Below, one piece after another: positions 41,327 through 44,655 of a DNA stretch of 64,000 nucleotides; within the stretch, counting starts at the first letter, position 1, and each line of letters begins with the position of its first letter. The position numbers were made by a program, and so were the translations under genes. The notes below the pieces were generated by a model. The model did not search any database, was not told where the DNA came from, and saw nothing but the letters and a program-made list of their open reading frames with translations. The stretch comes from Prosopocoilus inquinatus (Eukaryota; Arthropoda; Insecta; Coleoptera; Lucanidae). The DNA is taken from positions 24,836,001 through 24,900,000 of the forward strand of contig CM069870.1 of assembly GCA_036172665.1 (NCBI GenBank), read 5' to 3'.

Positions 41327-44300
41327 TGCTTGTGAAGAAGAAGGATGGGTCCACCAGGTTCTGTGTAGACTACCGGTTACTCAATAATGTCACCAAGAAG
41401 GACAGCTATCCCTTGCCACGGATTGATGATACCCTGGACACCCTGGCCGGCTCAAAGATCTTCTCAACTTTGGACTTAAAGAGTGGATATTGGCAAGTGG
41501 AGCTGGCGCCCGAAGATCGAGAAAAGACGGCGTTTTCCATTGGTATGGGTCTGTGGCAGTTCACAGTGATGCCATTCGGGTTATGTAATGCCCCAGCGAC
41601 ATTCGAGAGGTTAATGGAGACGGTTCTGAAAGGTCTGTCCTGGACAACGTGCATGGTGTACCTTGACGACATAATTGTCGTGGGAAAGACGTTCGACGAC
41701 CACCTAAGGAACCTGGATGGAGTGTTCCAGCGGCTTCGCGGAGCTGGACTAAAGCTTAGCCTCAAGAAGTGTCACCTGTTCCAGAAGGAAGTGAATTACC
41801 TGGGGCACATTGTTAATGGAAACGGAATCGCCGTGGACCCTGTGAAGATTCAGGTGGTGAAAGACTGGCCAACTCCCAGAAATAAACACCAAATAAGGAG
41901 TTTCCTTGGCCTGTGCACTTACTATCCGCGCTACGTTCCTGGATTTGCAGACATTGCTAAGCCGTTAACAAAACTCACTGAAGAAGGTCGTCCATTTGAA
42001 TGGGACCAACAGTGTCAAATTGGCTTTGAACAACTAAAGCAGTACTTGGTTAGTGCTCCTATTCTGAGTTATCCTCTCCCGGAAGGCAAGTTCGTCGTGG
42101 ACACAGATGCTAGCAACGTTGGAATTGGTGGCGTACTCTCCCAGATACAAGAGGGGCAAGAGAAGGTGATCGGCTACTTCAGTAAAGTCCTATCAAAGCC
42201 AGAACGAAACTATTGCGTCACAAGAAGGGAATTGCTAGCCGTCGTAAAAACGATAGAACACTTCTACAAGTACTTGTATGGTAGACGCTTCCTGCTGAGG
42301 ACCGACCACGCCGCTCTAAAATGGCTTCTCCGTTTCAAGAACCCAGAAGGGCAAATTGCACGATGGATCGAACGACTTCAGGAGTACGATTTTGAAATTC
42401 AGCATCGGGCAGGAACTAGCCATCGAAATGCCGATGCTCTGTCGAGAAGATCCTGTGCCGAAGACTGTAAGCACTGTAGTCGTTTGGACGAGAAAGTAGC
42501 CACGACTGCGAGGACAGCCATTGTTGATGACAAATGGCAAGGCGAAGAACTGCGAAGAGACCAGGAGAACGACCCGGATTTGAAATTAGTGCTAGAATGG
42601 AAAAGCAGGGACGCGAGGCCTACCTGGGAAGAGGTAGCACCATGTGCACCGTCCGTAAAATCATACTGGGCGCAGTGGGACTCCATAGTGTTGGATCGTG
42701 GTCTTCTGAGACGAAGCATAGAGAATCAGGAAGGCATGGAACAGAAGACACAGTTACTGATCCCCAAGAATAGGGTGCCAGAAGTTCTGAGGGAACTTCA
42801 CGATGGAACTTCCGGAGGGCATCTGGGAGTTAAGAAGACTATGGAGAAGGTGCGCGAAAGATTTTACTGGCTGAACTGCAAGGAAGACGTCAAGGATTGG
42901 TGCAGAAAGTGTGCAGTCTGCGCAGCCAGTAACGGTCCCCACAGGCGGGGTAAGGCTCCCATGAGACAGTACAACGTTGGAAGTCCTTTTGAGAGAGTTG
43001 CCATCGATGTAGCCGGCCCGTTTCCAGAAACGAATGGTGGAAACAAGTACATCGTCGTGGTAATGGACTACTTTAGCAAGTGGGTTGAAGCTTACGCCCT
43101 ACCTAACCAAGAGGCAGTCACTGTTGCGGAAGTCCTTGTCAGGGAATGGATCAGTCGGTATGGTGCACCTATGGAACTGCATTCAGACCAAGGAAGGAAC
43201 TTTGAATCGGCCTTGTTCAAGAACGTGTGTACTCTGCTCGGCGTACGAAAAACTAGAACAACTGCACTCCACCCACAGTCGGACGGAATGGTGGAAAGGT
43301 TCAATAGAACCATCAACCGACATTTGTCCAAGGTCGTTTCCAATCATCAGAGGGACTGGGACACGTACATCCCCCTGTTTCTAATGGCATACCGCTCATC
43401 TGTTCATGAGACAACAGGGGAGACTCCCGCGAAAGTGGTATTCGGGCGAGAGCCGAGACTGCCCTGCGACCTGAAGTTTGGTGTGAAGCCTGGCGAAGTC
43501 TCTGCCGACGAAGATTACGTGAGCAAATTACGCAGGAAAATGGATGATATCCACAACCAAGTGCGTCACAATATACAGACGGCCAGCGATCGGATGAAGG
43601 AGCACTATGACATCAACGCTCAACACGGGGGATACCAACCTGGAGCACTGGTCTGGCTTTATAACCCCCAAAGACGTCGAGGCCTCTCCCCAAAATTACA
43701 GACCTCTTGGGAAGGTCCTTACAAAGTGATGAAACGGATCAACGACGTCGTTTACCGCATCAAGAAGGTCCCCCATGGCAAACCCAAAGTAATCCACTTC
43801 AACCGGATAGCCCCTTACCATAGAGAAGCAGATGAAGGGACAGTACAAAGGGCGCAAGTTTCCGAAGTGAACTTCGAAACCTTCATGTCTCATCACGCCA
43901 AAGGAAGCAAGGCACGGTTTGGAGTGACTACGGAGAAGCAACAAGATCTCTTTAAAGTGCCACTGGAGTACAGTCTGGCCCACTGCGTAGCAGAAGACCT
44001 GAAAATGTCCAAAGGAATCGCTCAGGTGTTTAGGAAGAAATTTGGTCAAATCAAGGAGCTACGAAGACAGCATCCCGTGGTAGGCAAGAGCTTGCAGATC
44101 ATTGATTCGACGGCAGATCGGAGGCGCCACGTGCATTATTTAGTCACTAAGAAGATATCAAGCGGTAAACCTGACTATCAAAGTATGTGGAGAGCCCTAT
44201 ATAGCCTGAGGAGACAGCTAATAGAGAACCATCAGATGAAGTTAGCCATCCCCAAATTGGGCTGCGGATTGGACGGACTAGACTGGAGAGTAATCCGAAG

Positions 44301-44655
44301 CATGCTGGAAGTCATCTTTCACAGAACGGGAATTGAAGTCCTAGTCTGCAGCCACCACCCACAGGCAACAGTCAGCAACAGCAAAACCGTAGACTGTTAC
44401 TTCTTCCAGACGGGAAGTTGCAAGAATGGGCCAGCATGTAGATTCCGACACCCTCCTTCAAGACTATCACCAGGAACATTTCGAGACGAAACGTTTTTAA
44501 GAAGGGGGCAGTGTGGCGCGCCAACCGGCTTAGCGCAAGGCGTCAAGAAGTCGGTTCGCTGTTATGTGTTATCGGCCGTCACGCCATCGGGGCCTACATC
44601 GAACAGACTAGAATCTTCCAGCGTAGAGACTTCCAGACGGCAGCAAATGATATAA
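41311..44655 (+). CDS. pol: Pol: RT, RNase H, integrase, macro domain, CCCH finger
   Basis: It is joined to the upstream frame across a 1-base deletion near 41317; the GTG at 41311 is not a real start. Reverse transcriptase has YLDD at residues 117-120. RNase H begins around residue 261 with D266 in VDTDAS. Integrase has an HHCC-type zinc region (HLGVKKTMEKV..CRKCAVC), catalytic D566, D626 and E662 (DD35E), and a GPY-like module (SWEGPYKV). Residues 871-1015 are a macro domain of the TARG1/OARD1 type: SLAHCVAEDLKM, KGIAQVF, K947 in VTKK and D988 in GCGLDGL match its catalytic Lys and Asp. C1029, C1037, C1043 and H1047 form a CCCH finger. The last 48 codons are encoded within the 3' LTR. The macro and CCCH parts probably act on ADP-ribosylated host or viral proteins and on RNA, but this is inference. 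Confidence 0.9.
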   Translation: MGSPVVLVKKKDGSTRFCVDYRLLNNVTKKDSYPLPRIDDTLDTLAGSKIFSTLDLKSGYWQVELAPEDREKTAFSIGMGLWQFTVMPFGLCNAPATFERLMETVLKGLSWTTCMVYLDDIIVVGKTFDDHLRNLDGVFQRLRGAGLKLSLKKCHLFQKEVNYLGHIVNGNGIAVDPVKIQVVKDWPTPRNKHQIRSFLGLCTYYPRYVPGFADIAKPLTKLTEEGRPFEWDQQCQIGFEQLKQYLVSAPILSYPLPEGKFVVDTDASNVGIGGVLSQIQEGQEKVIGYFSKVLSKPERNYCVTRRELLAVVKTIEHFYKYLYGRRFLLRTDHAALKWLLRFKNPEGQIARWIERLQEYDFEIQHRAGTSHRNADALSRRSCAEDCKHCSRLDEKVATTARTAIVDDKWQGEELRRDQENDPDLKLVLEWKSRDARPTWEEVAPCAPSVKSYWAQWDSIVLDRGLLRRSIENQEGMEQKTQLLIPKNRVPEVLRELHDGTSGGHLGVKKTMEKVRERFYWLNCKEDVKDWCRKCAVCAASNGPHRRGKAPMRQYNVGSPFERVAIDVAGPFPETNGGNKYIVVVMDYFSKWVEAYALPNQEAVTVAEVLVREWISRYGAPMELHSDQGRNFESALFKNVCTLLGVRKTRTTALHPQSDGMVERFNRTINRHLSKVVSNHQRDWDTYIPLFLMAYRSSVHETTGETPAKVVFGREPRLPCDLKFGVKPGEVSADEDYVSKLRRKMDDIHNQVRHNIQTASDRMKEHYDINAQHGGYQPGALVWLYNPQRRRGLSPKLQTSWEGPYKVMKRINDVVYRIKKVPHGKPKVIHFNRIAPYHREADEGTVQRAQVSEVNFETFMSHHAKGSKARFGVTTEKQQDLFKVPLEYSLAHCVAEDLKMSKGIAQVFRKKFGQIKELRRQHPVVGKSLQIIDSTADRRRHVHYLVTKKISSGKPDYQSMWRALYSLRRQLIENHQMKLAIPKLGCGLDGLDWRVIRSMLEVIFHRTGIEVLVCSHHPQATVSNSKTVDCYFFQTGSCKNGPACRFRHPPSRLSPGTFRDETFLRRGQCGAPTGLAQGVKKSVRCYVLSAVTPSGPTSNRLESSSVETSRRQQMI
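44499..44508 (+). other. Polypurine tract
   Basis: AAGAAGGGGG lies three bases before the 3' LTR and would prime plus-strand DNA. It is also coding (end of the pol linker). Confidence 0.7.

Follow-up and report, generated by a model that had tools for sequence, protein, structure and literature searches.

The integrases of chromoviruses carry an extra domain, the chromodomain, at the C-terminus. A different addition, open reading frames (ORFs) encoding macro domains, occurs in epsilon-like endogenous retroviruses of fish (Basta et al. 2009, cited in PMC4977317). Among cellular macrodomains, human TARG1 hydrolyses Asp/Glu-linked ADP-ribose and also thymidine-linked ADP-ribose on DNA (PMC8501950, PMC11102865), and the latter reversal requires Lys84, the residue named as catalytic (PMC8501950). 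The macrodomains of DarG are bacterial erasers of the same thymidine-linked modification (PMC11102865). Here we describe a Ty3/Gypsy retroelement flanked by long terminal repeats (LTRs) in a 64,000-nucleotide stretch of the beetle Prosopocoilus inquinatus (assembly GCA_036172665.1, contig CM069870.1), referred to as the window, whose numbering is used throughout. The pol frame of this element continues beyond the integrase into a TARG1-type macrodomain.

The preliminary description of this DNA proposed that about 145 TARG1-like residues follow the integrase in the same frame and that both catalytic residues are present. A sequence search against solved structures bears this out. The best match to the segment at 43921..44355 (forward strand, as are all features given below) is human TARG1, also known as OARD1 or C6orf130 (4j5r, 4j5s, 2l8r), with an E value of 3.5e-29 and 37% sequence identity, and the motifs quoted in that description align with TARG1 in this match. 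Lys955 of the 1122-residue frame (codon at 44149..44151) is the equivalent of the TARG1 catalytic Lys84, and Asp996 (codon at 44272..44274) aligns with Asp125, which we take to be the second catalytic residue of TARG1. The runner-up among solved structures is DarG (5m3i) with an E value of 1.5e-5. A profile built from 12 sequences, dipteran OARD1 rows included, retrieved TARG1 at 7.2e-54 and DarG at 1.6e-10. In the AlphaFold model of the macrodomain, residues 11–150 fall into blocks with mean predicted local distance difference test (pLDDT) values of 75–98. Superposition on human TARG1, a check already suggested in the preliminary description, yielded a root-mean-square deviation of 0.9 over 141 residues, and Lys87 and Asp128 of the model coincide with TARG1 residues 84 and 125 as judged by the end offset of the superposition. 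Thus, TARG1 ranks first by sequence, profile and fold, and DarG macrodomains come next. A scan of IMG/VR for relatives found 105, of which 80 were kept, at 29–44% identity. Viral macrodomains were considered as the closest class and ruled out, TARG1 and DarG ranking first in the fold comparison.

The same fusion, which the preliminary description had suggested seeking in other insect Gypsy elements, occurs in records whose plausible named hosts are beetles. A search with the Pol tail returned 136 proteins, and 110 of the 120 listed are from Aromia moschata. The macrodomain alone returned 11 proteins, including ones from Pyrocoelia pectoralis and Leptinotarsa decemlineata as well as dipteran OARD1, and the reverse transcriptase (RT) search recovered a Callosobruchus maculatus record (P0147). 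Aromia, Pyrocoelia, Leptinotarsa and Callosobruchus are beetles of three families. Three records labelled Erysiphe pulchra or Klebsiella pneumoniae (P0093, P0162 and P0136) carry the element on contigs of 5–6.5 kb and are probably insect contamination of those assemblies. The Leptinotarsa record P0124, annotated as 'ADP-ribose glycohydrolase OARD1-like', has an integrase end domain and is a piece of a retroelement annotated as a host gene. This carries a warning for annotation, as this OARD1-like record and many beetle C3H1-type hypothetical proteins are pieces of the element. Macro-less Ty3/Gypsy elements, some in records named 17.6, 297 or 412, have the same Pol order, and their RT is mostly 67–73% identical among the matches listed. 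Their Pol, however, ends a median of 14 residues behind the HxNRL/HxDRL motif of the integrase end (51 motif-bearing proteins, four of which reach 99–223), whereas the median in macro-bearing Pol is 256 residues (132 proteins, the window's tail included).

With RT as the query, 7956 candidates were scored, of which 120 are listed. Of 123 proteins with an RT match, the 119 with sufficient coverage and the window make up the 120 rows of a quick RT tree. All 20 macro-bearing rows of this tree fall within one 30-row clade with support of 95, and seven of the ten remaining rows in the clade end before the macro position, as judged by eye. None of the 90 rows outside the clade, some of them fragments, has a macro match at an E value of 1e-3 or better. 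A careful RT tree was then computed from 55 rows hand-picked from the 120, namely the 20 macro-bearing rows, three long macro-less rows and 32 outside rows. The first 23 form one clade (100/98) against the 32 macro-less rows. Because the macro-bearing rows and the macro-less rows nested among them form a single RT clade, the macrodomain is placed in the element tree, from these sequences, as one capture, probably followed by some losses. Protein P0137 has no macrodomain and, by eye, apparently keeps remnants of the tail, which suggests loss by deletion; the other two nested macro-less rows stop after the integrase, perhaps because they are cut or because the domain was lost. The macro tree of 35 rows agrees in separating 27 element domains as one clade from eight stand-alone proteins (100/97), which are five dipteran OARD1 and three unnamed proteins, with no beetle cellular TARG1 among them.

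Conservation of the active site was assessed in 27 representative elements, leaving out P0134, which is cut, and two further Aromia rows. The macrodomains of the representatives have a median pairwise identity of 52%, and the Lys is kept in 26 and the Asp in 25 of the 27. Over the 136 macro-bearing element proteins, 110 of which are from Aromia and hence not independent, Lys is present in 131 (one Arg, four gaps) and Asp in 129 (two Asn, five gaps). The domains of other elements are 40–63% identical to that of the window and retain the open frame and the active site; at the window's median divergence, approximately four stop codons are expected without constraint under uniform mutation. A CCCH zinc finger of the form C-x7-C-x5-C-x3-H follows the macrodomain at 44383..44457, scoring 25.4 bits against the PF00642 gathering cut-off of 20.5. 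In an AlphaFold model of integrase end, macrodomain and CCCH finger together, confidence is low at the linker and the finger. Window aside, a CCCH match occurs in 11 of the 19 macro-bearing rows of the RT tree. Of the eight without it, P0134 breaks off within the macrodomain, and six group together as a single subclade of the macro tree. Since seven RT-complete rows keep the macrodomain with no CCCH match, the macrodomain does not serve simply to carry the finger.

At least 150 close copies of the domain are present in the genome. The best 150 of 1426 candidates were scored, and all are 97–100% identical over 170 residues; 148 have no stop in the domain and, by our count, 25 lie in frames of at least 1400 residues whose matched part contains no stop. 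Thirty copies (L001–L030) were fetched with their flanks, L007 and L008 having one flank in common. The target sites adjoining the 3′ LTR read RTAY in 21 of them (ATAT in nine, GTAT in seven and ATAC in five).

The element in the window has TG...CA LTRs of 328 bp at 38268..38595 and 44512..44839, flanked by the two halves of an ATAT target-site duplication at 38264..38267 and 44840..44843. Because the LTRs are identical over all 328 bp and ATAT lies on both sides, the copy appears to be a recent insertion. These ends, the short target duplication and the order protease, RT, RNase H and integrase found by domain search are those of Ty3/Gypsy LTR elements. The gag frame (38721..40271) encodes a SAP domain (E value 3e-6), a repeated stretch that resembles a coiled coil by eye and a CCHC knuckle (zf-CCHC, E value 1.2e-5). 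In the stretch 38721-39329, Gag opens with the SAP domain, a DNA-binding domain that is also listed for many Aromia relatives, and 33-nt tandem repeats then encode the coiled-coil-like stretch. The aspartyl protease frame spans 40082..41326 (Asp_protease_2, E value 2.4e-10). The pol frame at 41287..44655, open throughout, places RT at residues 16–176, RNase H at 265–367, H2C2 at 492–549, rve at 567–660, the integrase p58 C-terminal domain (p58_C) at 810–843, the macrodomain at 879–1023 and the CCCH finger at 1033–1057. The p58_C domain corresponds to 43714..43815 and has the HxNRL/HxDRL motif at its end. A purine-rich tract directly 5′ of the 3′ LTR (44499..44508), presumably the polypurine tract, is read through by the pol frame, which stops within the LTR. 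An errantivirus would be expected to have an env frame after pol, but in this copy no further forward frame of at least 100 residues is present downstream of pol up to the end of the LTR. A chromovirus was ruled out, no chromodomain appearing among the domain matches up to an E value of 1. Elsewhere in the window, positions 1-555 at its edge are a tandem array of 3.1 copies of a 179-bp unit, and a 315-residue frame at 54449-55396 has weak matches to mariner-type transposases and helix-turn-helix domains, all under the Pfam cut-offs. Neither the Rfam scan nor the tRNA scan gave a match anywhere in the window.

The identity of the domain, its fold, the conservation of its residues, its one origin and its position behind the integrase are directly supported. 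A reading that joins them, which we regard as an evenly balanced judgment, is that of an integrase-linked ADP-ribosylhydrolase that clears PARP1-made ADP-ribose from integration intermediates in the nucleus. A Ty3/Gypsy lineage would have captured a TARG1-type macrodomain once, from a putative cellular donor, adding it to the integrase end of Pol, and a catalytically active site would have been retained by most members. If the domain stays joined to the integrase after proteolysis, the eraser would enter the nucleus together with it. There, PARP1 may modify the ends of the element cDNA, the gapped product of integration or acidic residues of nearby proteins with ADP-ribose, and removal of this ADP-ribose by the macrodomain would keep PARP1 signaling from blocking joining or repair. 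Integration intermediates have single-stranded, unligated ends. Comparable structures in telomeric DNA, namely unligated Okazaki fragments and 3′ overhangs, are ADP-ribosylated by PARP1 and cleared by TARG1 (PMC11102865). Since insects are said to be without most vertebrate PARPs (PMC10221186), the counterpart is more probably nuclear PARP1 than an interferon-type PARP. A narrower version, that ADP-ribosylation of the DNA ends and gaps of integration intermediates by PARP1 restricts integration in insects and that this lineage overcomes it with a host-derived, integrase-linked DNA ADP-ribose eraser, is advanced only tentatively. A nuclear target other than PARP1 products is conceivable by analogy with mammalian SIRT6, which silences L1 by mono-ADP-ribosylating KAP1 (PMC4695847).

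Several observations weigh against an integrase-linked hydrolase. The Pfam Macro profile PF01661 scores 15.9 bits, below its gathering threshold of 22, which speaks against a simple Pfam check of the kind suggested in the preliminary description. The identity of the domain therefore rests on the TARG1 sequence match and the fold matches; together with the superposition, these outweigh the sub-threshold score. In order of conservation, the columns of the Lys and the Asp come 17th and 25th among 147, which is high but not at the top. P0143 has lost both residues and P0151 has lost the Asp together with a shortening of its loop, the rest of the domain being kept in each; the two are sisters in both the RT and the macro trees and possibly represent a reader-only or decaying lineage. 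Hydrolysis is therefore not indispensable to every member. The three macro-less members of the RT clade are nested at separate places in the careful tree, and the stand-alone proteins compared for a candidate donor include no TARG1 of a beetle or of this genome. Variants in the macrodomain of the 30 fetched copies comprise 24 synonymous and five replacement changes, but these copies were chosen for matching the macrodomain best in amino-acid sequence among the 1426 candidates, and the count is biased by that choice and does not serve as a fair test. The same bias applies to the counts for the integrase core (43 synonymous and 76 replacement, 15 copies), the integrase end and linker (17 and 19, 28 copies) and the CCCH stretch (eight and seven, 30 copies). 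Finally, the window copy is not intact: its protease and RT frames differ near 41287-41326, and its gag frame has no in-frame ATG near the start, yet its LTRs are identical.

The clearing of integration intermediates is nonetheless favored over the other explanations. The nearest of these invokes the same enzyme at a different place and with a different target: the domain, released or borne on Pol, would strip ADP-ribose from proteins of the element or of host defense or silencing, either in the cytoplasm, as viral macrodomains do, or at chromatin, with the CCCH finger aiding the binding of element RNA. We consider this unlikely. The retained hydrolase residues suit it, and so does a precedent in ZAP, which is a CCCH PARP. 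Human retrotransposition is restricted by ZAP (PMC4441479), viral macrodomains oppose ADP-ribosylation in other systems (PMC7232374), and the SIRT6 pathway offers a silencing target. However, the closest relatives of the domain are TARG1 and DarG rather than viral domains, and the reported paucity of PARPs in insects also argues against it. The interpretation in the preliminary description, that the element may reverse PARP-mediated restriction or use ADP-ribose signals at integration sites, with positive-strand RNA viruses as a parallel, is supported in part.

In chromoviruses, a chromodomain in this position tethers the integrase to heterochromatin. By the same logic, the macrodomain might act as a reader of ADP-ribose and tether the integrase to ADP-ribosylated chromatin or to break sites, with hydrolysis secondary, an explanation that seems somewhat less probable still. 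That the macrodomain immediately follows the C-terminal domain of the integrase, and that it persists in the P0143/P0151 lineage without the full catalytic pair, is consistent with tethering. Yet most elements conserve a catalytic pair, which would make binding briefer, and the RTAY preference, which is similar to the local site preference of ordinary 17.6/297-type elements, requires no reader. That the domain is a passenger, a captured host exon translated to no use of the element, is improbable: the three clade members without it and the lineage with eroded catalytic residues fit such a view, but the open frame and active site persist across divergent elements, and copy number is high in two genomes. 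A chance similarity, an assembly chimera or a gene-model artifact was rejected as scarcely credible. The frame breaks elsewhere in the window copy are all that speaks for it, and it is contradicted by the strength of the TARG1 match, by the number of genome copies with an uninterrupted domain and by the fact that separate records come from a number of beetle genomes and contigs.

If the eraser acts with the integrase, the physical fusion kept across the lineage links ADP-ribose signaling to retroelement integration and predicts that integration intermediates in insects are subject to PARP activity. The macro-less relatives, the elements with a macrodomain and no CCCH finger, and the lineage missing part of the catalytic pair provide natural contrasts. 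Among the papers listed by searches of the open-access literature aimed at it, no report of a Ty3/Gypsy integrase with a fused TARG1-type domain was found, and a mention of macro domains in retroelements was found only in PMC4977317. The passages checked in PMC4695847 and PMC7217437 do not deal with a macro-integrase fusion, nor do those in PMC11642819, which concern an RNA virus of aphids with a macro-like domain. The element domain shares its fold and catalytic Lys and Asp with human TARG1, but the latter stands alone whereas the former is an integrase extension with a CCCH finger behind it. DarG, the bacterial antitoxin of DarT, is more distant, at 20–23% identity in the three rows compared. 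The chromodomain of chromoviruses occupies the same place at the integrase C-terminus and is an unrelated domain. The fish endogenous retroviruses are, like the element described here, retroelements with a macro domain, but there it is found in additional ORFs of vertebrate retroviruses. The capture of extra domains by retroelements, including macro-domain ORFs in those retroviruses, is known already (PMC4977317), and what appears to be new is a TARG1-type domain of single origin on a Ty3/Gypsy integrase in several beetle genomes.

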